64,000 nucleotides of DNA from Tetraselmis striata (lineage: Eukaryota; Chlorophyta; Chlorodendrophyceae; Chlorodendrales; Chlorodendraceae). Below, one piece after another: positions 1-30,779 of the stretch (its first letter is position 1; every line of letters begins with the position of its first letter). Location: the NCBI GenBank assembly GCA_006384855.1, contig VCJN01003561.1, positions 186,001-250,000 of the forward strand. The letters are read 5' to 3'. The notes below the pieces were generated by a model. It made no database searches, had not been told where the DNA came from, and saw nothing but the letters and a program-made list of their open reading frames with translations. Made by a program: the position numbers and the translations under genes.

Positions 1-2890
1 AAAGAAATTCTCAATCAGACGCCAAGACCATTCGTGTTGCATGTGTTGTTTTCGGACCTTCGTTTTTTATTGAAATTAATTGTTCATCAACAGATGACGA
101 CTGAACATAACGCGATAACGCATCAGGGTTGTTTTAGGTCACAAACCTACCGCTGTTGAATATAGACTCCGCTAGCAAAAAGGGGAGGGGGCAATGACTT
201 ATCTGTATCGATCTTTAGTTGTATCGCACATACATCGTGATAGTACCGTAGTCAGCATCACTATGATTACCTGTACTGCGCGCGCTGACATGTATATGCA
301 ATTGCGCGGGCCCAGTGCTATACAATAGAATACGACCATTTTGATTGTATATGTATATAGTATCACAAGCAGACGACAGCTTTCCATCTGGAAAAGCCGT
401 AATTATTATGGTACCATACTTCATGGATACGCCGATGTGGCTGCACTTTTTGTATCGCATGATGAGTTCCTACAACATGATGCGGATAATCATCCAGCTA
501 GAATTCCATCAACTGCAAATCAAACATTGCTTTATGTTGTTTAAGGGGGACGAGAGAATGACGTAGTGTGACAGTTGTATCGGGGTACAAGCACATGAAG
601 CTTTGCCCCCCTTCCCCTCGCCGAAGCGCTATTCCGGAGTAATTTTAACAATTAATTTCCGGACATCGTACTGCATTATGGGCGACGTTCTACTCGTGCA
701 GTAGGGATTGTATAAATGTACGACGACTGCTTTAGTCGCTAGTGCTCATATATACCGCGCGCGCCGCGGATCGTCCCAAAAGCTCTAGCGAGATATTGCC
801 CCCAGTTTCAACACGCCCTAAGTTTCAATACGCTATGTATTCTCCGCATCAACTCGTCGTCAGGCCATGCATGTGCCTGCCCACTATGGCTCAAACTGTT
901 CGTTTGATCAAGGGCGCATATCGGCAACCCTAGCGGCATCGGTGGTGGGCCAGCAACGCACTCGTTGTTAAAGGGTGGAGATGTCGAAACGATAAGTGAG
1001 TCTAGAAGAAAAGCGCACGAAGACTTTCCGCCGCCGAGACATCACGCATCCATCATGATACGACCATGGCGTAGTAGTGCGGCGCCGCAGACCCCCATTG
1101 TTAGCCGTGGCCCGCGCCAGCCAAGCAAGGGAGGGCGTTGCTGTTGCTGGCGGCCGGCAGCATCGAGCACATGCAGCCGCTGAGAATCATACTCAGATGG
1201 TACCACGTGATGTAGTTCCCAACAAGAAGGACGTCGTTATTATTGGCAACGCGGGAAACGTCGGGGGGCGTGTCCGACCTTTGCAACGTGCATGATTGCA
1301 GGAAGCCCAAGTGCATCTTCTCGTGGAAGGCGCATGTCAACATGAAGCCATCGGAGCCATTCACTCCAGATGATGAGGTTTCATGCAAGTGCGTGTGACT
1401 GTTCACTTGTGCCCATCCCCGTCCCCTCTCTGTTGCTATTGACTATGAATATTGCAGTTGAGTATACAATATGTATGTCATTTACATGGTTTTGGCCTCT
1501 CACACACTGCATGATGCCATGGCATCATCCGCATATGTTAATGGCATGCAACTCCTTGATGAAGACCACCACATGTACAACGCCTTTGTGTGTGATAGCG
1601 GCCTCACTTGTGACCATGCCATGGAGACGGGGTTCTATATCACTCGCAACAAGCGACGCAAGACTTGTCATGGGAACGCAGGGATCGATGTGGAGCCTAC
1701 GCTATGTGCAATGTGTTCATGCGCATCGGGTGACTTAGCATGAGCCTTTGTTGATCGGCATTTATCAGACGTATTCAAGACGATGTTGTCCATGTGCCAG
1801 ATGCATGGCATGACACCAATGAGATGTAATATGCCAAAGGCTACAAGAGTTCGGGCAAGGAGAAGTAGCATGCGCTCGATGTGGAGCGAAGGCGCAGAGG
1901 GACAATAGCGAGTGTGCGGCGTGCAGCAAAAGCCAGCAAGGCAGCAGCCAGCAACCAGCGGCGTGCACCAACTAGCTAGCAAGCAGCAGCCACATGCCAG
2001 TAGCAACTAGCCGTGACAGCTTTGTATGGATGGTGGAAGCCGGGAGGGTCATGGGCCAGTCATAGACCTTTGTAATCACAGCATGTGGTTTGTGCTTCTT
2101 ACATTATTTGCTGCGAGCTGCAATGTGCATGCACAGCAACTAGCTGCAACTCTGCTGCTCCGCAACTCTGCTGCTGCACAACTCTACATGCAATTGTGAC
2201 TGTTTTCCCCCCGAAAGTGCTCATTGCAGTACTTTACACTTAACATCATCCATAAACAAAACTTCTGGAGAAAGGGCCGGGGGGGGGGGTTGAGGGGGGG
2301 GGGCGGGAATCCGCGAGTTGGGCGGGGGAGGGCGGGGGGGGGGGGGGGGGGGGGTCGTCCCTAATACTAAAACAGCGATACAATTCAGTGCCCCTATTTT
2401 ATTCGCTACTGTCCTGTCCCCGCGGGGCGGGGGCGAAAAAGCATGCAAGCAAATGCGTCCGCCTGCGCGTGCGGCTTGTCGCCCGCCGCCCCGCCGTCGC
2501 AATATCGTCGGCGCGGAAGATACTCATCACGGCACTAACCCGCACGCGCGTAGACTATCAGGCGCGCCGGCTCGCAGCTCGGCGATCGCTGATCCTGCGC
2601 GCGACGCGCCCTTTGCTTCGTCCGCGGACTCTCGCTGCCCCCCCCCCCCCCCCCCCAAAGCTGCGCCCCCGTACTGTCTGCGAAGACGTCGGCCGGCCAC
2701 CTAGCGCTCCACCATCTGCCCGCCCCCCCCTCCCACCCCTCTCCCCCCCCTCTCCCCCCCCTCTCCCCCCTCCCCCCTCCCCAACCCCAGCCACTTCCCT
2801 CCCCCCCCCCCCCCCCCTGAGCGCCCCTTATTCCCCCTCCAGGCATCAAACCCATCAGGGGCCCGCGCATTTCGCAGCCGAGCCAGGCGA
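1..2890. other. No supported gene
   Basis: Only short open frames with no recognisable domain and no consistent splice structure are seen on either strand. From about 2279 to 2354 the plus strand is almost pure G, and from about 2637 to 2815 it is C-rich; the long proline- or glycine-rich open frames here are products of these tracts. Confidence 0.5.
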
Positions 2891-3583
2891 GCGTGGCACA
2901 CGCGGCATGTGCTCGCACAGGTGTGCGCCATTGGCAGCGAGCTGGACAGCGGCTCCAGCCCAGACACCAATGTCAGCGTCAGTGTCATCGTCGGCATCAG
3001 CGCGTCGTGCGGCACATTTCCCACGGCGGTGGAGGCCTGCTGGGGGCGCCAGGCGCCTTGGCGCCCCGCAGCGCAGCAGGGGGACGCCCCGCAGCGCAGC
3101 AGGACAGCGTGCGACGGCCTGGAATGCGTCGTCCGCAGGGCTGCCGCCGAGCACAGCCGCGGGTAGACCACTCACGGGCCCATCGGTACCGCATCGGTGA
3201 GGCTCCCTGCTTGGCCCCGACCTGCGACCCCTCTCCCGAGAACACCGCGGCCCTTTGACTATTCACTACGGGTTCCTGTTGTTCCTTCCGGGAGGAGCGC
3301 AGACGTGTGTAGAACGGCCCGTAAGGACTCTGGCTCAGGGTGTAGTGCAGGACATCATCACAATGTAAGAATTAGTACAATCATCCCACATGTTCACTGC
3401 ATTCAATCCTTTTTCAAATGTGGTACAGCTTATAAAAGTGCTGTCAGCATACATATATGTGTGTGTGTATTCTCTTCACATTGCGATCGAAGCCTCTTTC
3501 AGTCTCCCGCTCCATCCGCAACCGCCGCCTAGAACCCACACCGGCGTAGAATTCCGTCCACTGCCCCCTCCTCTTAATCCTGA
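2891..3583. other. GC-rich stretch upstream of the SulP gene, possible 5' exon or UTR
   Basis: Open frames run on both strands but none is recognisable. The first SulP exon I can place has no ATG in its open frame, which begins just after a TGA at 3581-3583. The true start is therefore probably in an upstream exon, and this stretch is the nearest candidate. I could not find a frame-consistent splice pair. Confidence 0.25.
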
Positions 3584-17360: not shown

Positions 17361-17372
17361 GGGGGTATATTA

Positions 17373-17568
17373 CTGTAGGGTTTCCTAGGGGGAAACGACC
17401 TAAGAAACCCTGGTTTTCGCAGTGCCGACAGGGTTATGTGACGACCCTGCCGGCCTGGTCCGCCTGGACCGGCCGGCGCCGGTCCGACGGCGCCCTTTAT
17501 CCGAGTATAAAGGGCAGCCGCAGACCGGAAGCGCGCCTTCAGTTGTTGGAAGGCGCCCGACTATATTG
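17373..17568 (+). repeat. Split direct repeat A1 (left end of PAT-like element)
   Basis: Starts CTGTAGGGTTT, contains TATAAAG at 17506 (possible promoter) and ends ...CGACTATATTG. It is nearly identical to A2 at 28319-28512. An internal hairpin pairs AGGGTTT with AAACCCT. Confidence 0.85.
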
Positions 17569-17707
17569 TCTTCTACGATTGGTACATTTTTCGTTCATCT
17601 TCGACTCCAATTTCAAATTTCTTCTGCGTTGTGTCTGTTGTGTGATCCCGGCACTCACCGTGGCTCGCTCCGCGAGTTCGTCTTGGGCGTGGCTCCTTGT
17701 CTCGCTC

Positions 17708-18706
17708 ATGGTGCTGTCGCCGTGCTTCCTCGTCCCTGTTTTGGCAGTGGACAAGTTTGAACTCGTTTGGAACGAGCTACTTGAGGCTCGCAAAGCTCTT
17801 CGTGAGCAACTCGTTACGCGCGAAAATCATCTCACTGTCCTAGGTGGTGATACTCCACTTGCAAATGGGGTAACTGAGTTTTCCCCTCTCGTCGCCGCTA
17901 GACAAGCAGTAGTTGATACCCCTGCAGCTCTACTCCGTATCGAACGTGAGATCTCAGAGCTTAGGCAGGCGGTCGCGTCGTCGAGCGACCCGTCCACTTT
18001 GGCTTCGGTTTCGAAACGCGCTGTGGACGGAGACGCCGACTACGATCGCCAGAGCAAGAGGCCAGCTCAACCACCTGCTGCGGAGGTGCCGTCTCGCACC
18101 ATCAACGCGCCTGAGGATGGCTGGCTCGACAAAGATGGTAAGGTTCACCGCGGCCGCCATACCGCTGACGCGCGCATTCTTCAGCGTGACCTAGACGACG
18201 TCTTCAAGATCCATGACCTTTTGGCACCAGCGGAGGAGCCTCTGCGCGATCTGGTGAAGGACGGCACCGATCTCCATGCTTCCTCTCCGGCGTCGTTTGT
18301 GGAACTGCTCAAGGCGATTACCGCGGCTCCGACGTTGTGTTCTACTATGGCTCTTCGGATCAACAAGCGTGGCAAGACGCTTCATGTGGAGCACGAGTAC
18401 GGCGCGGAGGTCGCCCGGGAGTTTGATGCGGTGGACCCTCTCGGCGAGAAGGGCTCGGCGGACAAGGAGATGAAGAAGGCGATTGAGAAGGTCAAGGCCA
18501 AGAAACCTTCCTCTTCTTCGCGCGCGAAGCCAACTTCCTCTTCTCGCAAGCATGAGTTGTCTCGCCGTGGGAGCGACAACCGGAGGGAGGGCGGCCGTCG
18601 TGAGGAGAGGACTCCACCTGGTCGGTCTTCTGCCGCGGACATCACCTGCTACCGCTGCCAAAGGAAGGGTCACTTCAGTAGGGACTACCCGAGTGCGCGT
18701 CGCTGA
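17708..18706 (+). CDS. Gag-like protein of the PAT-like element
   Basis: About 332 residues if it starts at the ATG at 17708; the frame is open further upstream into repeat A1, but that ATG is the first beyond the promoter-like TATAAAG. The middle is helical and charged, with EEPLRDLVKDGTDLHASSP. A lysine- and serine-rich segment follows (about residues 255-300), then a C-terminal zinc knuckle CYRCQRKGHFSRDY. The usual pattern is C-x2-C-x4-H-x4-C; here the last Cys codon is TAC (Tyr), probably a point mutation. Gag proteins package the RNA template and form the particle. The ORF is otherwise intact, unlike the downstream RT and recombinase frames. Confidence 0.75.
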   Translation: MVLSPCFLVPVLAVDKFELVWNELLEARKALREQLVTRENHLTVLGGDTPLANGVTEFSPLVAARQAVVDTPAALLRIEREISELRQAVASSSDPSTLASVSKRAVDGDADYDRQSKRPAQPPAAEVPSRTINAPEDGWLDKDGKVHRGRHTADARILQRDLDDVFKIHDLLAPAEEPLRDLVKDGTDLHASSPASFVELLKAITAAPTLCSTMALRINKRGKTLHVEHEYGAEVAREFDAVDPLGEKGSADKEMKKAIEKVKAKKPSSSSRAKPTSSSRKHELSRRGSDNRREGGRREERTPPGRSSAADITCYRCQRKGHFSRDYPSARR

Positions 18707-19150
18707 AGCTGTGGAGTCTGCAAGCCTCATGGCCTGGGCAGTGATGGTGTTTTTCGTGTAGCTGCAGTTAGGCCTCCGGGCAGCTGTTAGCCCTCCTCCA
18801 AGAGCTGAGCTCATGCTCTTGTCGCAGCAGCTCTGATGCCCTCAGGGGGAATCACCTGTTTGGTAGTATATCTCGGAGATATACCTTGTGAATAATGCAT
18901 ATGATGGCCCCTACTACCCCGTGCTGCCTCTGGCAGTTGCCTCTGCGACTTTTCATGGTTGGCTGGTGATTCCATGTGTGTGAAGAACTGCACACCCTAG
19001 TGTGACGGTTCATATCTTCCGACGTGACGAAGCGATATCTATTTTGAAAATACTGTTATTTTCAGTTACCGATAATTTCGATCTCAAACTCCCTGTTTGA
19101 TTCATGCAACAGTCATCCAGGCTGCTTGCTGACCATAATGGTGATGTCTT

Positions 19151-20531
19151 TTGCGTTGGCGTTTTGTGGCAGTATTAACGTCAGCTAATTTTGAGCTCCC
19201 TCATGAGCCAGCTCTGGACGTCAATTATCTTGTGGAATCTGCCGGTGTTATCCGTAAAGGCTGGCAATTTTGGAACAGCATCACTGACCCGGTAAGAGAC
19301 AATCAGGTCAGAGATTGGGTCAGACATGGCTACCGTATGAAATGGGCTGATGGTCCCGCACCATCTGGCCATCTGCCAAATCACCCTTCTGCTCTTCAGC
19401 ACCCTGATTTTTTTGATGGGCAGATCGCTCTGTTATTGCCGTTGGGCCATATCAGAGAGGAGTCTGTACCACTTGTGGTCCTGAACCCCTTGGGTGTGGT
19501 TCCCAAACCCAATGGTGGACTCAAGCTGATCTGTGACCAGCACATACATGTCAACAAGCATTTGGTGTACACTCCACTCAAAATGGAGTCGCTGTCTTTG
19601 TCAGACCCGGTGAATCAGGGTGACATGCTGACCAGTAGTATGGCCCTGATTCAGGGCTATTATCATGTCCGTCTCCATGACTCTGCTGCTCCTTTCAGTG
19701 GGTTCGAGTGGAGAGGAAAATTCTATACTTGGCGGGTGCTGTGTGTTGGGTTACCTGATGCCCCCCGCTGTTTCTCTAAGGTCATGGGAGTGTTGGTGCG
19801 ACACTGGCGCAGTAGAGGCATCATGATGCTATGCTATCTGGATGACTGGCTGTTCATCTCTAGCTCTGTCAAGAAAGCACATTTGACTACTCAGCAAATG
19901 TTGGCTGATGTTGAGCACGCCCATGTCAACATCAACTTCAAAAAAATCCAGTCTGAATCCCAGCCCCACCATCGATCACCCACTGGGTTTTGATCTGGAC
20001 ACCGTGGTTGGTACCTTCTCTGTACCTCAGAAGCGATGGGATGCCCTTCAGCTCGATTCAGTCCCTGCTGCATGGCCACCATAGACGCCACAAAGTCAAG
20101 TCTCGAGCCAGCTGTGATGGGAAATTGATTTCTATGGGGCGAGCTTTTGGCCCAGTTTCTCGGCTATTTCCAGAGGTCTATATGCCAACATTGCTCGAGC
20201 TGAACGGTGGGGTCATCACGTTGCTCTCTCTGAGGAATCCCGTGAGGAGCTACAGTTTTGGTCCCAAGTGTCTAGGCAACAATTCACTGGACACATCGTC
20301 CCTGATCTGGACAGCAAGCTGTCCGTTTTTCTGGAATGTGATTCCTCGGGCATCGGCTGGGGCGGCCTGGCCAGACCGACAGATTGCAGCTCCGACCCCG
20401 TCGCGAAAGCTCACGGCTTCTTCCTTCCGTGGGAACGTGTAGAGTCCTCGACACACCGTGAGACTCGAGGTCTCCTTTTTGTCTTGAAGCGCCTATCACA
20501 CCCGATCGCGGGCAGACGAGTGCAAGTATGA
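19151..20531 (+). pseudogene. Reverse transcriptase / RNase H of the PAT-like element (frameshifted)
   Basis: The first 280 codons (to 19993) are an intact RT core: VVLNPLGVVPKPNGGLKL (finger region), MALIQGYYHVRLHDSA (motif A), VGLPDAPRCFSKVM (motif B) and the catalytic box CYLDDWLF (motif C, YLDD). The frame then breaks. DIRS-type text continues in other frames: FGPVSRL-like around 20140 and an RNase H start, ECDSSGIGWGG, near 20335, ending by 20531. At least three frameshifts are needed to follow it. The C-terminal half of RNase H is absent before the Ty3 insertion site at 20653. This is a degenerate, inactive copy. Confidence 0.8.
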
Positions 20532-20648
20532 ATCTCCCGGAACTGGCGCGTCCTCGCCTTGCGTGTCGACTGCCGACCTGGCGCGCGGCGCACCCCGGCG
20601 CACCACCGCTGCCTCCACCCGAGGTGGTGCGACCGTCAGGGCTCATGA

Positions 20649-20653
20649 GTCGG
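20649..20653. repeat. Target-site duplication GTCGG, left copy
   Basis: The five bases GTCGG precede the 5' LTR and recur directly after the 3' LTR at 26947-26951. This is the usual 5-bp duplication of a Ty3 integrase. Confidence 0.9.
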
Positions 20654-21066
20654 TGTTATACTCCATTTCCCTATAGCCATAATGTTCTGCTATACTAGCA
20701 GGTATAACTCCCCGCAAAGGTAGTACGACTACGCATCCGCGGAGTCGCTGTACATATTAGTATTGCGGGCGTAAATATTAGTAGTATAAGGCCGACGACT
20801 GTTCTGGAATTTTCTAGAGTTCTCTGACTCAAGCCTTACGTGGCTAACACAGCACGGGTATCCCATGACACCCGGCTAACATAGCACAGGTATGACTATG
20901 ACCTCGGCGGGTATAAATACCGCCTCGGACAAGTCTACTAGGAAGAATTCAGAGACAGAACTATAACCCAGGAACCCCTGTAACCAGAAGAGATTGGCCA
21001 TACTTTCTAAATCCTTCCGCTGCATCCTAAAGGGCCTAAAGAACAGGCTTAAGCTAGAGCCTAACA
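20654..21066 (+). repeat. 5' LTR of the Ty3 element
   Basis: 413 bp, TGTTATACT...CCTAACA. It contains GGGTATAAATACC around 20912, a plausible promoter TATA box for the element. Confidence 0.97.
20912..20918 (+). promoter_or_regulatory. TATA box in the 5' LTR
   Basis: TATAAAT, about 155 bases before the LTR end, is the only clear TATA element in the LTR. The promoter role is inferred. Confidence 0.55.
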
Positions 21067-21068
21067 CT

Positions 21069-21080
21069 TGGTTTCGGAGC
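21069..21080 (+). other. Primer-binding-like site
   Basis: TGGTTTCGGAGC lies two bases past the 5' LTR. It differs at two positions from TGGTATCAGAGC, the common primer site for initiator tRNA-Met in plant LTR elements. The tRNA of this host is unknown, so the primer is inferred. Confidence 0.55.
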
Positions 21081-21105
21081 TTAGACAGCGGTAAGCGACG
21101 TAAAG

Positions 21106-22266
21106 ATGGCTACACCAGGAGAGACACCACCTGAGGACAGCGGAAGCTTTCCGGTAGCGGCCACTGCCGGCGAAGCACAGCCGATTCCGCTCGAAGGAGG
21201 TCAAGAGGGCACGCAACCGACCCTCGCAACCATGATGAGCATGCTTCAACGATTAGCCGACCGAGTCGAGACCATGTCGACGGAGCAAGCGAAGATGCAA
21301 GATGTAGCGCAAGCTACGACGGCGGCAACGGCGGAGATTCGCCGCTTAGACGAGTACGTGCGACAAGGCTTTAGTCATTTCGACGACCGAGTGAACCGGA
21401 GCCGAGTTGTAGAGCAGCAGATGCGAGACCAGCTTCGTTCTGCCCGGACCAGCGACATGCCTGGGCTCATGCCGAGCGATGTGAAACCAGCGAAGATCGA
21501 GAAGCTATCGACTACGAATATCGACGAGCTACGGAACTGGTTTCGTCATGCACGGGGTTACCTGAAATATCACAATGTAAACCCGGAGGAACCTCGTAGC
21601 GTGTACTGGGCATCTGGCTATTTTCACGGACCTGTATCCAAGTGGTGGTACGCGCAAGTGGCGAGTACGCACGACGAAATTGGCGGCGGTTTTACCGGTA
21701 TTACGCACATGGAGGCGGCACTAATCACCGAATTCTGTGGACGTACACCGGCGAAGCAAGCTCGTATCAATCTGGATCGCGCGACACAGCGGACTACAGT
21801 ACAGAAGTACGCGAATTATTTCCGCGAGCAACTACTGGAGTTACCACATCGTCACGAGGAAGATAATGTACATGACTTCCAGCGCGGACTGAAACCCCAT
21901 ATTCGAAAGGAAGTTGCCCTGAAAAACCCTAAGACCCTGGCAGAAGCTGTACAGGCAGCTCTGGCTGTTGAAGCTGCGGAGCGGGAGACAGATGTGCACC
22001 GCGAGATCCGTCGCGAGCGCCTAAACATCATGGACGACGATGGCGACGACGACGAGCAGTACTACAGCAGTGCTGAGGGTGAAGCTACAGAACAAGAAGA
22101 CGACCTGTTGATGGCGCGGCGATTGACCGAGGAGGAGTTTGAGAGATTTAAGAAGGAAGGTCGCTGCTTTATCTGCAGGGCGAAAGGTCATGTTGCGTCC
22201 GCGTGCCCGAGCAAGAAGAAGAAGATTTCCGAGTATCGACCCAGAAAGACCCGGCCGGGAAACTAA
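21106..22266 (+). CDS. Gag polyprotein of the Ty3 element
   Basis: 386 residues from an ATG 40 bases past the LTR. An N-terminal coiled coil (about residues 40-125) is followed by a capsid-like region: residues about 140-290, with RNWFRHARGYLKYHNVNP, VSKWWYAQVAS and YANYFREQLLELPH, typical of Ty3 retrotransposon gag. An acidic stretch (MDDDGDDDEQYY) and a C-terminal zinc knuckle CFICRAKGHVASAC (C-x2-C-x4-H-x4-C, all residues present) complete it. Gag forms the particle and binds the element RNA. Its last 64 bases overlap pol, which lies in the -1 frame with no ATG in the overlap, so Pol is probably made by -1 frameshifting. I see no textbook slippery heptamer there. The ORF is intact. Confidence 0.9.
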   Translation: MATPGETPPEDSGSFPVAATAGEAQPIPLEGGQEGTQPTLATMMSMLQRLADRVETMSTEQAKMQDVAQATTAATAEIRRLDEYVRQGFSHFDDRVNRSRVVEQQMRDQLRSARTSDMPGLMPSDVKPAKIEKLSTTNIDELRNWFRHARGYLKYHNVNPEEPRSVYWASGYFHGPVSKWWYAQVASTHDEIGGGFTGITHMEAALITEFCGRTPAKQARINLDRATQRTTVQKYANYFREQLLELPHRHEEDNVHDFQRGLKPHIRKEVALKNPKTLAEAVQAALAVEAAERETDVHREIRRERLNIMDDDGDDDEQYYSSAEGEATEQEDDLLMARRLTEEEFERFKKEGRCFICRAKGHVASACPSKKKKISEYRPRKTRPGN

Positions 22267-25200
22267 GACGTGAGTCGGCCGCGCGCGGCGCGCGACAGGG
22301 TGAAGGACTGTCCCCTAAAACGGCTCGCGAGACTACAGAAGTACAGCCCTCGTATCCTCGAACGACACTGAGGCCTGATTTCCTCCACAAGGATTTCAGC
22401 GACTGGATGGTACATCGCGAATTATTTCACGAGTACACGAAGAAATACGGACCCTGCGACCTGGACGGAGCTTGCGATAATGACGGCCTGAATTCTCAAG
22501 TTTCTGGTAGTTTTTGCTGTCCGACGCGCCCATTTCAGGAACAGGATCTCGGAGAATATCGGCGTATTTGGCTAAATGCCCCGTATGACCGAATTGAAGA
22601 ATTTTTGGGCCACTACCTTCGACAGAAGTTATTGCATCCGCATCTACGAGCAATTATTGTGGTCCCAAAATGGTCGCGTAAGCCGTGGTTTCGACTACTG
22701 AGAAATTTTCGTCTGGTGGATGAGTTGCCAGCGGAGACTTTTGTGTTTACGTGTCCAACGAACGATGGCATAGAAGGTGCGAGACAAGATGTTGGCCCCA
22801 CTCGATGGGCGACACAGATCTACGCTGACGATGGCGCCGGCGTACGGTTTCTACCGCAGCACCTGAGAACCCCACCGAAGCCTGAGTGGACGCACTCGAA
22901 GGTTCTAGTAACCGATGGAAGACGAGTGCTTCTGACTGTAGAAGACAGCGGACTGATTTGGTTTCCAGAAGGCAAGCGCGGCGACACGGACGCGACGCCG
23001 GAGACAACAGCAGTACGACGATTACTCGAGCAAACTGGGTACCGGGTACAGGAGAGCAATCTACGGTACCTCGGCACTCAGCGGGCGGGAGACAACCGGT
23101 GTCCTGTATACCTGTATCGCGCTCGTCGTAATATTGTACCTACGAAGACCCCTTTGAACCGTGCACTATGGACAACCTGGAAGAAATTATTGGAGGCACG
23201 AAGTACGGGTTATCTGGAGACGGAGACAGTACGCTACCCACTACGGTACGAAAGCTTTGGCGAACAAATTGATGAATATATCAACCGTAACGTCCGACTA
23301 CCTGGCGAAGACTCCACATCGCGTTTGTGCAACGTATCTTCACCGAGTGGTACCCGACTGCTGACTATTACTGGCGAATTGCGAGGACGACACTGTAAAA
23401 TACTGGTGGACTCTGGTGCAACCGAAAATTTTGCGAGTACCGAATGGGTGCAATTGCATCAGTGCCCTACAGTATCCGGAGGAAAACACCGTATAAAACT
23501 GGCGAACGGCAGTATGAGTACCAGTACCAAACGGCTGAGGAGCGAAGTACTTACCGTAGGAGCTTTCGACTATAAATTGGACGCTATAGTTACAGACCTG
23601 GAGAAATTCGACATTATTCTCGGACAACCTTGGCTGGAAACAGTTAATCCTGACATTGACTGGACTGCTAAAATTATCAAACACCGGAAGACTGGACAAC
23701 ACATTGCTACAGCGGAACAGTATACAGTACCTACGACGGTTTACCATCTGGACGCGGCTAAGATGGCGAAGGAGCTGAGGAAGAGTCGCGGCGAGGAACT
23801 GTTTGCTGTTGCGGTACGCGAGGTGTTCGATGCGGTAGCTGAGCTGCGCACGGACCAGTCGACCGAGTGGACCGAGGAGCTCAAGGAGTCCCTTATGGAG
23901 TTTGCAGACATCATCGCGGAGCCTACTAACCTGCCACCGGAGCGCGAGTTCGACTTTGAGATCAACCTGGAAAGTGATGAACCCCCCAAGGAACGAACGT
24001 ACCGTATGTCACCAGCGGAGTTGCAAGAGGTACGGTCACAACTGGAGGAATTGTTGGCAAAAGGGTGGATTCGTCCGTCCAAGTCAAACTACGGCGCCCC
24101 AATTTCATTTGTGCGTAAGAAAGACGGCACTCTGCGTATGTGTGTGGACTACCGTAAATTGAATGACCTTACGAAGAAAGACCGGACCCCGCTTCCTCGT
24201 ATCGACGAATTATTGGACTCATTGCATGGTGCGACTATTTTCAGTACTCTGGACCTGTACAAAGGCTACCATCAAGTACGAATTAAACCGGAAGACATCC
24301 ACAAAACAGCGTTCCGGACACACTATGGACTCTACGAGTACTGTGTGTTACCTTTCGGCTTGACAAACGCCCCAGCTGGATTCCAGACTATGATGAACCG
24401 TGTTTTGAGCCCATATCTCGGCAAATTCTGCGCGGTATACCTGGACGACGTGGTGATCTACAGCAAGACAGCTGAAGAGCATCTCGAGCACATCAGATTG
24501 GTGCTACGGGAGTTGCAACGACACCACTTGCATATCAAGCTGTCGAAGTGTTCGTTCGGCGGTACTAGCGTGGAGTTTTTGGGCCATATCGTCGAAGCAG
24601 GACAGATCAAGATGGACCCCCGGAAGGTGGAAGCAGTTCAACAGTGGCCCGTGCCGAAGACAGTAAAGGACGTACGAGGTTTTCTCGGCCTTGCTGGCTA
24701 TTACCGCAAGTTCATCCATAACTTCGCGGCTATTGCGGCGCCACTACATGACCTGACGAAGAATCAACCGGAGTTTGTGTGGACGCCTCGTGCTGATGCA
24801 GCGTTTCGTGCATTAAAGGACGCAATGGTACGAGCACCTGTACTGAGTATACCGGACACATCTGCGGACGCCCGTTACACATTGTATACAGATGCTTCTG
24901 GATTTGCAGTGGGAGCTGTGCTGCTGCAAGATCAAGGCTCAGGACTTCGACCTGTCGCGTACCATGCACGCAAGATGAACAAACACGAAGTTCACTACCC
25001 GGTACATGAGCAAGAGTTGTTAGCGGTTCGTGATGCACTCATCAAGTTCCGATGCTACCTTGATGGAGCGGCGGGCTTTACGGTCATCACCGTCCATGAC
25101 ACACTACGGCACTTCTTTCGCCAACGCGATTTGTCGACGCGGCAAGTACGATGGCTGCAAGTGTTTGCGCCTTACCAACGACATATGGACATCGTCTACA

Positions 25201-25748
25201 AACGAGGAGCTGCCAATCATGCGGACGCCCTCTCTCGGCGACCCGACTTGAAGGATGCGCTACAGAAGCTAGATCTGCTGAACAACTGGTCAGAAGACGA
25301 GGCTGACTGCGAAATAAATTCAGTTTTATTTGCTATGGAGTCGCGACTACAGGCGGACAACAAGTTTTACGACGAAATCAAGACCGCATATGACTCCGAC
25401 GAGTACCTGAAATCGCGGAAAGCTTTACCATCCTGGCTAGTACGTCACAGTAATGGTCTACTGTACGCCTACGGCTCACGACTTTACGTACCAAATGTGG
25501 CGGAACTGCGACAACGAGCACTGTACGAACTACATGACGCGCCAACTGCTGGACACCCAGGAGGACGACGACTACTGGCGCGTACTGTGGAACTGTACTG
25601 GTGGCCCCGTATGAAACAGACTGTCACCAACTACGTGCGACGCTGCCCTACCTGTCAACGTACTAAGGCGGCCCGGCATAAGCCATACGGCTTACTTCAG
25701 CCCCATGACGTACCGTCACGACCATTTGAGGTAATATCCCTGGATTAA
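22203..25748 (+). CDS. Pol polyprotein of the Ty3 element (ends at TAA inside integrase)
   Basis: 1181 codons. Residues about 60-185 resemble phage Dam-type N6-adenine methyltransferases, with DGACDNDGLNSQV and WLNAPYDR where the family has (D/N)PP(Y/F). Residues about 228-310 resemble a Nudix domain (LIWFPEGKRGD...AVRRLLEQTGY) with its usual catalytic Glu residues altered. Then come the aspartic protease (LVDSGATENF, 401-410), reverse transcriptase (KDGTLRMCVDYRKLN, then YLDD at 746-749), RNase H (LYTDASGFAVG, near 895) and the integrase HHCC zinc finger (25527-25672). The frame stops at TAA 25746-25748, right after the Asp that should be the first integrase catalytic residue. Protease, RT and RNase H look intact. 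Pol is expected to be expressed as a Gag-Pol fusion. Confidence 0.93.
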   Translation: MPEQEEEDFRVSTQKDPAGKLRRESAARGARQGEGLSPKTARETTEVQPSYPRTTLRPDFLHKDFSDWMVHRELFHEYTKKYGPCDLDGACDNDGLNSQVSGSFCCPTRPFQEQDLGEYRRIWLNAPYDRIEEFLGHYLRQKLLHPHLRAIIVVPKWSRKPWFRLLRNFRLVDELPAETFVFTCPTNDGIEGARQDVGPTRWATQIYADDGAGVRFLPQHLRTPPKPEWTHSKVLVTDGRRVLLTVEDSGLIWFPEGKRGDTDATPETTAVRRLLEQTGYRVQESNLRYLGTQRAGDNRCPVYLYRARRNIVPTKTPLNRALWTTWKKLLEARSTGYLETETVRYPLRYESFGEQIDEYINRNVRLPGEDSTSRLCNVSSPSGTRLLTITGELRGRHCKILVDSGATENFASTEWVQLHQCPTVSGGKHRIKLANGSMSTSTKRLRSEVLTVGAFDYKLDAIVTDLEKFDIILGQPWLETVNPDIDWTAKIIKHRKTGQHIATAEQYTVPTTVYHLDAAKMAKELRKSRGEELFAVAVREVFDAVAELRTDQSTEWTEELKESLMEFADIIAEPTNLPPEREFDFEINLESDEPPKERTYRMSPAELQEVRSQLEELLAKGWIRPSKSNYGAPISFVRKKDGTLRMCVDYRKLNDLTKKDRTPLPRIDELLDSLHGATIFSTLDLYKGYHQVRIKPEDIHKTAFRTHYGLYEYCVLPFGLTNAPAGFQTMMNRVLSPYLGKFCAVYLDDVVIYSKTAEEHLEHIRLVLRELQRHHLHIKLSKCSFGGTSVEFLGHIVEAGQIKMDPRKVEAVQQWPVPKTVKDVRGFLGLAGYYRKFIHNFAAIAAPLHDLTKNQPEFVWTPRADAAFRALKDAMVRAPVLSIPDTSADARYTLYTDASGFAVGAVLLQDQGSGLRPVAYHARKMNKHEVHYPVHEQELLAVRDALIKFRCYLDGAAGFTVITVHDTLRHFFRQRDLSTRQVRWLQVFAPYQRHMDIVYKRGAANHADALSRRPDLKDALQKLDLLNNWSEDEADCEINSVLFAMESRLQADNKFYDEIKTAYDSDEYLKSRKALPSWLVRHSNGLLYAYGSRLYVPNVAELRQRALYELHDAPTAGHPGGRRLLARTVELYWWPRMKQTVTNYVRRCPTCQRTKAARHKPYGLLQPHDVPSRPFEVISLD

Positions 25749-26447
25749 ATCACAGATCTGCCGGAGTGCCAGGGGTATGACTCAGTAGTGATTTTCGTAT
25801 GTCTACTGTCAAAGCGAGTAATTGTTGAGCCAACTACGAAAACAGTTACTGCTGAAGGCCTGGCGGAGATTATGCATCGCTCAGTTTTTCGTCATTTCGG
25901 CCTGCCGGCTAAACTCATCTCTGACCGAGACCCCAGATTTATGTCGGAATTCTGGCAAAATATGTTCAAGACCATGGGTACTAAGCTGAACATCTCTACA
26001 GCTTTTCATCCAGCAACCGATGGCCAGACGGAACGGACTAACCAAACTTGGGAGCAAGTGCTACGCTGCTACGTGCACCCCCTGCACGATGATTGGGTCA
26101 ACCACCTCACCAACGTGGAGTTTGCGATCAACGCTGCTCAGTCGACTTCGACTACTATGTCCCCTTTCAAGGCGACTTTGGGATTCGAGCCGACTACACC
26201 TGCTACTACTCAACTCGCAACCGAGCCAACTCGAGCTCTTCCGGAACACGTCAAGTATGTACAGGAGCTTCATCGCTTCGCGCATGATTGCGTACTGGAG
26301 GCTCAAACTCGGGAGCCCCTACGCGGAGTCAAGCACCTGGACATTTTCCGGTCGTTCTTACTGTCTAAACCATACCGACAGTTTACTGAGAGCCCAGACT
26401 TCATTCGGTTCCGGAATCGCTACCCAAGCCGAGTACCTTCCGCCTGA
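25749..26447 (+). pseudogene. Integrase remainder, in the pol frame after the stop
   Basis: This reading frame continues pol without a shift and encodes most of the integrase core: LISDRDPRF carries the second catalytic Asp and DGQTERTNQ the catalytic Glu. The first catalytic Asp is upstream of the TAA at 25746. After AHDCVLEAQTRE the text no longer follows the family. The GPY/F-type C-terminal domain is missing, and IFRSFLLSKPYR may be the tail of a Ty3 C-terminus joined after an internal deletion. A full-length integrase would need both stop readthrough and the missing domain. Confidence 0.8.
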
Positions 26448-26520
26448 ACTTCAAAATCAAGACCAAGACTGTAGTTTCCTGTAGTTCTGTGACACCTGCA
26501 CAGCGAGGACGCTTGTGCTT

Positions 26521-26533
26521 AAGGGGGAGAGAG
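26521..26533 (+). other. Polypurine tract
   Basis: AAGGGGGAGAGAG directly abuts the 3' LTR, the place where plus-strand DNA synthesis is primed. Confidence 0.9.
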
Positions 26534-26946
26534 TGTTATACTCCATTTCCCTATAGCCATAATGTTCTGCTATACTAGCAGGTATAACTCCCCGCAAAGG
26601 TAGTACGACTACGCATCCGCGGAGTCGCTGTACATATTAGTATTGCGGGCGTAAATATTAGTAGTATAAGGCCGACGACTGTTCTGGAATTTTCTAGAGT
26701 TCTCTGACTCAAGCCTTACGTGGCTAACACAGCACGGGTATCCCATGACACCCGGCTAGCATAGCACAGGTATGACTATGACCTCGGCGGGTATAAATAC
26801 CGCCTCGGACAAGTCTACTAGGAAGAATTCAGAGACAGAACTATAACCCAGGAACCCCTGTAACCAGAAGAGATTGGCCATACTTTCTAAATCCTTCCGC
26901 TGCATCCTAAAGGGCCTAAAGAACAGGCTTAAGCTAGAGCCTAACA
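26534..26946 (+). repeat. 3' LTR of the Ty3 element
   Basis: 413 bp, identical to the 5' LTR except for G at 26759. Followed by the target duplication GTCGG. Confidence 0.97.
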
Positions 26947-26951
26947 GTCGG
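26947..26951. repeat. Target-site duplication GTCGG, right copy
   Basis: Matches 20649-20653 and marks where the interrupted PAT-like element resumes. Confidence 0.9.
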
Positions 26952-27025
26952 CCATCAACCGTGGGTGTACCTCCGCATGGCCGAGTTACCCGGTAGCAAC
27001 CTCCGATGCGACCGGAACATCACTG

Positions 27026-28107
27026 TTTAAAGCTTTGATCGCATCGGCTCCACGACAGTGGGCAGCTGGCTCTAATCGTGGCTATGCCTATCTGTGGAAT
27101 CGATTCGTGATGTTTTGCGAAGCTCGGACACCCCCAAAGTGCCCTATGCCAGCAGCTCCGATTGTAGTGGCTATGTTTTTGCAAGCTCGGGTGGACGCGC
27201 CGTCTACCAACAGTTATTCCGTGATCATGTCCGCATCGGCGGCGGTATCGCAGATGCACCGGCTGAATATGCACCCTAGTCCTACCTTATCACCGTGTTG
27301 CGCCTCTGTCCGGGCGGCAGCCAAGCGCACCCTGGGGCTCGCCGTGAAAAACGTCAAGGAACCCTTCGCGTGGTCTGACATCGCGAAGCTCGTCCGGCTT
27401 CGCTGCCGGGACGACTCGGGTATTTGTTCCTGGATAATAGCAGTCGCCGCGCGCGTTAGTTTTGCCGGCTTCTTTCCGCTACGGCGACCTCCAAGCAAGT
27501 TCTTCGATGGGAGGACGTCTCCTTCCTCTCGACTTACCTGGAATTCCGCTTCGTGAAGCGCAAGAACGACCAGCACCGCCTGTGTGGCAAGGCGCATGTC
27601 GCCAGAATGCCCGGCGCCGTGGTGTGCGTCTATGGACTCCTGCATCGGTACCATGCCGTGATGATCCGCTGGGCAACACCCACCTTGCGAATGTTCCCGG
27701 GATTCAGCGGCACAATCCTACGGCACAAAGGAGAGCTAGAGATAGTTCCCTCCTCCTCCCCTATTGAGTACCCCGCGTTCAGACGCTAACTTGCGCGGTG
27801 GTTGGGCCCGCTGCTCCCCCCTGCGATGCCTGAGGCCGCTTTTCTGGCTCGGTACGGCACCCAGTCCATCCGGAGCGCCGGCGCTTCCGCCGCCGCTAAC
27901 GCAGACATCCCGTTTGCGACATGGGGCCAGCATGGTGGCTGGAAGTCGACCTCTGCTCAGCTTCGCTATATGGGGCTGGATGAGGAGCACGTTTTGTCCG
28001 TGTCGCGTGCGATCCTGACGCTTGCCGAGGAGGACGAGCTGGACGATAGTGACGGTGACGACTCGTCACCCGACACAAACTCGGATTCCTCCCGGGGCGC
28101 CACTTAG
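27026..28107 (+). pseudogene. Tyrosine recombinase of the PAT-like element (frameshifted)
   Basis: DIRS/PAT-type tyrosine recombinase, the enzyme that integrates the circular DNA copy. The N-terminal half reads from 27026 to about 27480 (GYAYLWNRFVMFCEART, SWIIAVAARVSFAGFF). Two frame changes occur between 27480 and 27510, after which FRFVKRKNDQHR and MFPGFSG continue to a TAA at 27787-27789. The last part (27802-28107) carries ARYGTQSIRSAGASAAANAD, GQHGGWKSTSAQLRYMG (probable catalytic His/Trp and Tyr region) and an acidic tail. With two frameshifts and one stop it cannot make an active enzyme. Confidence 0.85.
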
Positions 28108-28252
28108 GTCCCAACCTAGTGGCAGTTTTATACCGTGCTTCTGATGTTCCATGCTTGTGTCTGTACCTGAATGTATGTGATTCCCTGTATGATTTTGTCA
28201 CATATGTCCGTGTACGGGCCCCGCCAGACCGGCCACTGGTCTTTCATCTGTT

Positions 28253-28319
28253 GGATCTTTCGGTCCCAGCCGACCCCGTACATTTTGATGCAAAATCGAC
28301 GATGTCTAGCTGCGAAAAC
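28253..28319 (+). repeat. Split direct repeat B1
   Basis: Runs from GGATCTTTCGGTCC to TAGCTGCGAAAAC and is joined without a gap to A2. It matches B2 apart from a 4-base indel and a few substitutions. CTGCGAAAAC pairs with GTTTTCGCAG near 28358, giving a hairpin over the junction. Confidence 0.85.
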
Positions 28320-28512
28320 TGTAGGGTTTTCTATGGGGAGACGACCTAAGAAACCCTGGTTTTCGCAGTGCCGACAGGGTTATGTGACGACCCTGCCGTC
28401 CCGGTCCGCCTGGACCGGCCGGCGCCGGTCCGACGGCGCCCTTTATCCGAGTATAAAAGGCAGCCGCAGACCGAAAGCGCCTTCAGTTGTTGGAAGGCAC
28501 CCGACTATATTG
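28319..28512 (+). repeat. Split direct repeat A2
   Basis: Near-identical to A1 at 17373-17568, with a TATAAAAG box at 28452. Similarity ends at TATATTG. Confidence 0.85.
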
Positions 28513-29605: not shown

Positions 29606-29771
29606 TGCCTTGTACCGTGAAGGATCAAAAATCACAAGGGCATGTCTTGCCGAGGGAGAGGACATGAGCCGTCGGCAGGCTGAATGGGCGGAAAGCGGCA
29701 ACGCGGAACATGGAATTGTTAGTGGTACTCTGTCGATAGGTATCAGGCACAAGTAGACCCGTTGCAGAAGT

Positions 29772-29917
29772 GTGGAATCCAGAGAGCCACAAGGATAAAT
29801 CGTTGTAGTCGCTACATTGTACATCCCAGCGTCCGCCGACCCAGGAGTGTGGAATCTAGAGAGCCACAAAGATAAATCGTTGTAGTCACTACATTGTACA
29901 TCGCAGCGTCCGCCGTC
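29772..29917. repeat. Tandem duplication, about 75-bp unit, two copies
   Basis: Units at 29772-29847 and 29848-29917 share GTGTGGAATC-AGAGAGCCACAA and TAAATCGTTGTAGTC. Confidence 0.85.
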
Positions 29918-30779
29918 CCGCCGACCCGGGGCCCGTGGTCTGTCGACGGACGGGCGGGGAGGCGGACGGGCGACGGTCGTCCTGCGTCCGGCGACATGCG
30001 AACGACGGCGTCCGGCGTCCGGGTCCGGTCCACGCGGCGGGCTCGGCGCTTCGCGCCATGCCCGCCCCGTAGACCTGACGAATGGCGACGACCGGCCCGA
30101 CCGGCGGCGGCTAGGCGGCCGGTACCCGTACCGGTACCGATTGTCAGATAAGCGCAATGGTTATTTTGGCCTGCGCGGAATTATGACGGAGTAAATAACG
30201 GATACATGGTCGATTAATCTAATAATATATGCGAAACCGTTCCGAAAGTCGGCGACAGACAAACAGACTGACTGACAGAAAGACATACTCGCCTCGTTCG
30301 TGATTAATATGGTAGGATACTGTGAAGATTCATGTACAAAATGTACATATCAAATCTTGACATGCGACCATTAGATTTTTACAGCAGGGCTTTAACACAT
30401 GCGCACTACAAACAAAACTAATAGCAATAACTATGACAGGTTGCTAGCAAAAAAGAGACATAAGCTTGAAACCAAGGTCGAGCAGGAGGCCAGGGAGCCA
30501 AGAATCAAGGAAGAGCCAAGGGAACAACGAAGTCGCCAAGCTGCCAGGAACGAAAGGGCCAAGGGAAGCATTGAAACCAAGGAACGACCAAAAAGACCGA
30601 AAGGGGAACATGAAACCAATGGGGGCCACCGCCCCGGGGTAAGCCATCAGCCGCGGCGGGTACGCTTGCAGCCAATGACCCGGATCATAGCAAGACATGC
30701 CGACGAGCGACGCGACGCATGCACATGAGCACCATCAGGTGCCGCGCGCGCGGCCGCGACCCCGCCAAGAACGTTGTCT
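29918..30779. other. No supported gene
   Basis: GC-rich and then AT-rich DNA. A highly charged plus-strand frame at 30399-30728 (KLETKVEQEAREPRIKEE) is built from degenerate short repeats and has no recognised domain. Confidence 0.4.

Follow-up and report, generated by a model that had tools for sequence, protein, structure and literature searches.

The stretch analysed here (the window) comprises 64,000 nucleotides of the chlorophyte Tetraselmis striata (contig VCJN01003561.1, positions 186,001 to 250,000) and holds, at 20654-26946, a Ty3-type long terminal repeat (LTR) retrotransposon. Between Gag and the protease, its Pol carries a Nudix-like domain with an altered Nudix box; an adenine-methyltransferase-like domain, overlooked in the preliminary description of this locus, adjoins it upstream, the two forming a two-domain accessory stretch. 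The LTRs, the target-site duplication, the Ty3-type Gag and the order protease, reverse transcriptase, RNase H and integrase place the element in the Ty3/gypsy group. The LTRs differ at one base only and GTCGG flanks both ends, indicative of a young insertion. A zinc-knuckle (zf-CCHC) match in gag stayed below the Pfam cut-off (17.2 against 20.8 bits). The features are listed below (strand in brackets, scores from Pfam).

20649..20653 (no strand): target-site duplication GTCGG, left; the identical five bases stand right after the 3' LTR
20654..21066 (+): 5' LTR, 413 bp, TG...CA; one mismatch (20879) to the 3' LTR
21106..22266 (+): gag open reading frame; Ty3_capsid 34.4 bits and Retrotrans_gag 26.1 bits, both above cut-off
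22203..25748 (+): pol open reading frame, in another frame than gag and overlapping it; an in-frame stop within the integrase part terminates it in the window copy
22392..22841 (+): N6-adenine methyltransferase-like domain, Pol 64-213, motif NAPY
22884..23306 (+): Nudix domain, Pol 228-368 (Pfam match 234-308); profile matches, weak fold support
22971..23042 (+): degenerate Nudix box, Pol 257-280; from an alignment and residue tally over 29 rows (28 loci)
23328..23687 (+): aspartic protease; RVP_2 33.8 bits
24111..24593 (+): reverse transcriptase; RVT_1 130 bits
24780..25175 (+): RNase H; RT_RNaseH 96.7 bits
25503..25670 (+): integrase zinc-binding domain; Integrase_H2C2 70.5 bits
25788..26447 (+): integrase core piece, which the in-frame stop of the window copy cuts off from Pol; rve 23.6 bits, below the cut-off of 32.6
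26534..26946 (+): 3' LTR, matching the 5' LTR
26947..26951 (no strand): target-site duplication GTCGG, right

The Nudix domain and its degenerate box

The preliminary description had proposed a Nudix-like domain at Pol residues 228-310. Its translation of 22884-23132 was reproduced within the single open Pol frame, and a profile search recovered the domain: Pfam NUDIX (PF00293, curated cut-off 21.1 bits) matched residues 234-308 with 25.3 bits (E 1.7e-5) in the whole Pol and 28.8 bits (E 1.4e-6) in the isolated stretch. The location thus stands, but the domain is probably longer, as the strands and helices predicted in a low-confidence model continue to ~363-368. Eight further copies scored 27.4 to 35.4 bits, so that all nine copies scanned, the window copy included, exceeded the cut-off (25.3 to 35.4 bits). 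A control profile trained solely on canonical Nudix exons, 13 in all, from the T. striata genome ranked the window domain first (12.4 bits; best shuffle 7.5) in a set of 518 sequences that included 500 shuffles, 16 slices from elsewhere in Pol and the window domain reversed. Profile-profile alignment of the element Nudix with the canonical exons gave a probability of 84.8 (E 6.6e-6), against 0.2 (E 0.38) for the reversed query. Single-sequence matches in the PDB reached E 0.021 at best, with 22 of the 24 names being Nudix-type, and a 23rd, methanol dehydrogenase activator, we take to be Nudix-type as well.

The best PDB profile match was Bacillus subtilis RppH. Among NCBIfam models, the YtkD RNA deprotection pyrophosphohydrolase (TIGR02705) came first for all three pieces searched, with 18.3 bits for the window copy and 25.9 and 21.7 bits for two older relics of the family, L010 and L027 (~80% identical), scores that come nowhere near its equivalog cut-off of 154.4. 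The known equivalog families tried, YtkD, MutT and a Deinococcus Nudix, were rejected, all scoring far below their NCBIfam cut-offs.

The canonical box, G-x5-E-x7-RE-U-x-EE-x-G-U, is not preserved. The element has G-KRGDT-D-ATPETTAV-RRLLEQTG, which exceeds G-x5-E-x7-RE by one residue. In the MutT register, as we take it, R273 occupies the place of the RE glutamate and position 277 that of the last glutamate of EE. The changes of RE to RR and of EE to EQ noticed earlier hold; the reported replacement of the first glutamate by alanine depends on the register, since the position is D263 followed by A264. The box was tallied over 29 rows representing 28 loci (the window copy was entered twice, also as L001), most of them young copies. 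R273 and E276 were found in all 29 rows, as were G257, K258, T265, P266, E267, R272, T278 and G279; at position 263, 26 rows had D and the other 3 had E, and at position 277 there was Q, R or K (27, 1 and 1 rows), never E. The box is thus degenerate in all 28 loci read, with Arg for the RE glutamate and Q, K or R for the last one. Since relics L010 and L027 share this degeneracy, the box was lost before the young family arose.

Within the Nudix superfamily (PF00293), the nearest members are B. subtilis RppH and YtkD, followed by MutT-type proteins. The element shares with them the profile match above cut-off, the box residues G-K, TPE, R, E and T-G and, in its low-confidence model, the predicted strand-helix order. 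It differs in the additional box residue, in RR for RE and EQ, EK or ER for EE, in reaching no NCBIfam cut-off and in its location inside a retrotransposon Pol.

Methyltransferase domain, genomic copies and order of capture

The upstream domain gave a borderline match to the Dam-type family PF05869 (cut-off 28.1 bits), with 28.7 bits in isolation, 24.0 bits in the whole Pol and 28.3 bits in the copy L040. The catalytic motif of Dam-type N6-adenine methyltransferases, which we take to be [DN]PP[YFW], is replaced in the window copy by NAPY; elsewhere the motif reads NPVY (L029, L030, L044), NPPF (L042, L048) or NAPF (L037). The predicted structure is a methyltransferase fold resembling PCIF1, which is also nearest by sequence (the only two matches of the domain); no solved phage Dam of PF05869 is among the matches, and this may partly account for the ranking of PCIF1. 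Dam domains are already known from DIRS elements (see passages of PMC6338049). The element resembles these and PCIF1 in its borderline PF05869 match and predicted PCIF1-like fold, and differs from the DIRS type in that its domain precedes the protease instead of following reverse transcriptase-RNase H, as it does in L037, and in having NAPY, not NPPY/F.

The searched assembly (224 Mb, 2903 contigs) is that of a photosynthetic host, with 48 matches to the chlorophyll-binding family. It contains the Dam-Nudix stretch in at least 126 places, all 126 scored ones matching (1245 candidates), and with the corresponding piece of a relic as query in at least 150 places, again with all 150 scored matching (615 candidates); some of the places counted are possibly duplicate contigs. 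Counted manually, the stretch was free of stops in 118 of the 126 scored places, and a 1539-aa open frame was found at 48, one of which had a stop inside the match. The proposal of the preliminary description, that a Ty3 Pol has captured a Nudix with an altered box and carries it between Gag and protease, is thus supported by both the profile match and the recurrence of the stretch in the scored places and in older relics. The whole-genome NUDIX search yielded at least 149 matches (150 scored of 374 candidates), comprising this family, its relics and further loci whose score, frame and lack of repetition led us to take them for host genes. Locus L009, considered as another Nudix-bearing retroelement, was discarded when its sequence proved to be that of an unrelated protein. 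A genome-wide search with Retrotrans_gag had no match at all, not even to the gag of the window, and carries no information. Nothing significant that would point to a recent host source of the domain was found among the open frames of 20 Nudix-hit regions (L049-L068; best E 0.12).

Six other Ty3-like loci had a Dam-type match upstream of the protease. In five of them (L029, L030, L043, L044 and L048) the two share a frame, whereas in the relic L042 they lie in separate frames. No NUDIX match at E <= 1 was found by Pfam in the four Dam-bearing Pols L029, L030, L044 and L048. A survey of related Ty3 elements therefore gives a divided answer: the segment is present throughout its own lineage (126 of 126 scored places and the older relics) and absent from these four relatives. 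The Pol of L029 is ~40% identical to the window Pol from protease to integrase, and its Dam domain and protease are separated by ~50 residues, versus ~166 in the window Pol. The Ty3-type Dam domains, including that of L047, formed one clade apart from all others (support 100/98), in which the window row was long-branched and drew a tool warning. Given the four Dam-bearing relatives without a NUDIX match, the simplest order is probably that the methyltransferase came first and the Nudix was added later in one lineage; the alternative, that the other lineages lost it, is less parsimonious.

A chromodomain closes the Dam-bearing Pols of L029 (2035-6636; Pfam Chromo 31.6 bits) and L030 (477-4874; 32.0 bits), both above the cut-off of 25.1. 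L037 carries a 696-aa reverse transcriptase-RNase H-Dam frame (1420-3507), and many places with an equal frame length scored 30-32 bits, which suggests that this family was recently active.

Capture of accessory domains by retroelements has precedents. An AlkBH5-like 2-ODD resides in an additional open reading frame of an orchid Gypsy element, according to passages of PMC9289625, and parts of PMC5890265 describe Gypsy-Dnmt3 of K. nitens and DNA methyltransferases (DNMTs) in Gypsy, LINE and DIRS elements; the orchid and K. nitens cases share with ours the capture of a nucleic-acid-modification domain by a Gypsy element and involve other domains. Searches of open-access papers turned up no LTR retrotransposon described as carrying a Nudix; this fold would extend the series of captured dUTPase, AlkB and DNMT domains to another fold.

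Function of the Nudix domain

We favour, with somewhat better than even confidence, a pseudo-Nudix captured by a methyltransferase-bearing Ty3 lineage and kept as a binding module. A lineage already equipped with an N6-adenine methyltransferase-like domain in the Gag-protease interval would have acquired the Nudix, which settled between methyltransferase and protease and may have been retained to bind an RNA end, a cap or a nucleotide, acting alongside the methyltransferase inside the Gag-Pol particle. Because the Nudix lies after the Gag-Pol overlap and before the protease, it would be made only within Gag-Pol and enter the particle with reverse transcriptase. Every copy read lacks two or more of the four box glutamates, making hydrolysis unlikely and a pseudoenzyme most likely. 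Human CFIm25 (NUDT21), as described in passages of PMC3695940, likewise lacks two box glutamates and does not hydrolyse, yet still binds nucleotides and RNA; it differs in being a free host protein, and is not among the PDB sequence matches listed for the element Nudix. With hydrolysis unlikely, this precedent favours a binding pseudoenzyme, and binding of RNA or a nucleotide is, by analogy, our best-supported guess. Two observations weigh against it: the predicted Nudix structure is poor (predicted local distance difference test, pLDDT, 48), with weak fold-comparison scores whose top rows are still Nudix, and no relative outside this genome was found in viral or GTDB contigs, a search of viruses, phages, plasmids and prokaryotes that says little.

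LTR elements seldom retain extra Pol domains, and those retained reveal limits of the life cycle. A methyltransferase-like domain in several Ty3 families of this genome, with a degenerate Nudix in one, is suggestive of elements that act on their own RNA or complementary DNA by modifying or holding it.

A rather unlikely alternative is that a single chance capture brought in a Nudix that was already dead and drifts as a tolerated linker, a neutral passenger. The degeneracy of the box in all 28 loci is compatible with this view. Its strongest counterargument is the ratio of nonsynonymous to synonymous change (dN/dS) on the relic branch, calculated from differences common to L010 and L027 and rare or absent in the family, and thus from two relics with uncorrected p-values. 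For the whole Nudix it was ~0.32 (17 synonymous, 16 nonsynonymous), departing from neutrality (p 0.0013); a first pass over residues 228-312 had given 0.36 (p 0.027), and L010 compared with L027 gave 0.94, as dead copies should. The corresponding values were ~0.08 for Dam, 0.18 for protease and 0.06 for reverse transcriptase, so that constraint on the Nudix is the weakest of the measured domains, differing from reverse transcriptase (Fisher p 0.008), marginally from Dam (p 0.059) and not clearly from protease (p 0.45). Within the family, Nudix variants of any frequency numbered 19 synonymous and 27 nonsynonymous (0.51), those seen at least twice 5 and 6 (0.43), and those seen at least three times 2 and 6 (1.08), the last showing no constraint, as a passenger would. 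Nine box residues constant in 29 of 29 rows, those named above except R273, speak against drift with little weight, these being mostly young copies. On the relic branch, then, the Nudix was under weak constraint.

Among solved structures, PCIF1 and RppH are the closest to the two domains, and both act at RNA 5' ends, a suggestive analogy rather than evidence of function. Dam and Nudix might accordingly form one RNA 5'-end module, in which the PCIF1-like domain marks the cap-adjacent adenosine of the element RNA and the dead RppH-like Nudix holds the 5' end or cap; we regard this as distinctly unlikely. If true, the mark would identify self RNA to be packaged, translated or spared from host decay, and we know of no earlier Nudix or cap-type writer in the Pol of an LTR element.

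Quite improbable is continued hydrolase activity of the Nudix through a rearranged metal site, by which it would sanitise deoxynucleoside triphosphates or trim RNA 5' ends much as retroviral dUTPase removes dUTP. E276 and an acidic residue at position 263 in all 29 rows would fit such an enzyme, as would YtkD and RppH as the best NCBIfam and PDB profile matches; Arg in place of the RE glutamate in all 29 rows, Q, R or K in place of the last glutamate and NCBIfam scores of 18.3 to 25.9 bits, far below 154.4, argue against it. The dUTPase of betaretroviruses has a fold different from Nudix. It is likewise a captured nucleotide-type domain in the equal slot, between Gag and protease and N-terminal of the latter (passages of PMC1224870), and differs in being an active enzyme and in that our element also has a methyltransferase-like domain. 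A chance resemblance, to which the low model confidence, weak fold scores and a best single-sequence PDB match of only E 0.021 might point, is very remote and largely refuted by Pfam matches above cut-off in nine of nine copies, 22 of 24 Nudix-type PDB names, the shuffle and reversal controls, and Nudix top rows in the fold comparison although the model is poor.

Surroundings of the element

The Ty3 element is seemingly nested in another retroelement (17372-28480). A 163-base direct repeat (96%) flanks it at 17372-17534 and 28318-28480, and a reverse transcriptase frame (RVT_1, 47.2 bits) lies ahead of it at 19151-19993. The frames following it at 27035-28107 had no Pfam recombinase match; by eye they resemble a tyrosine recombinase, and the outer element was labelled DIRS likewise by eye. 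A 77-base tandem pair, 92% identical, is located at 29765-29918.
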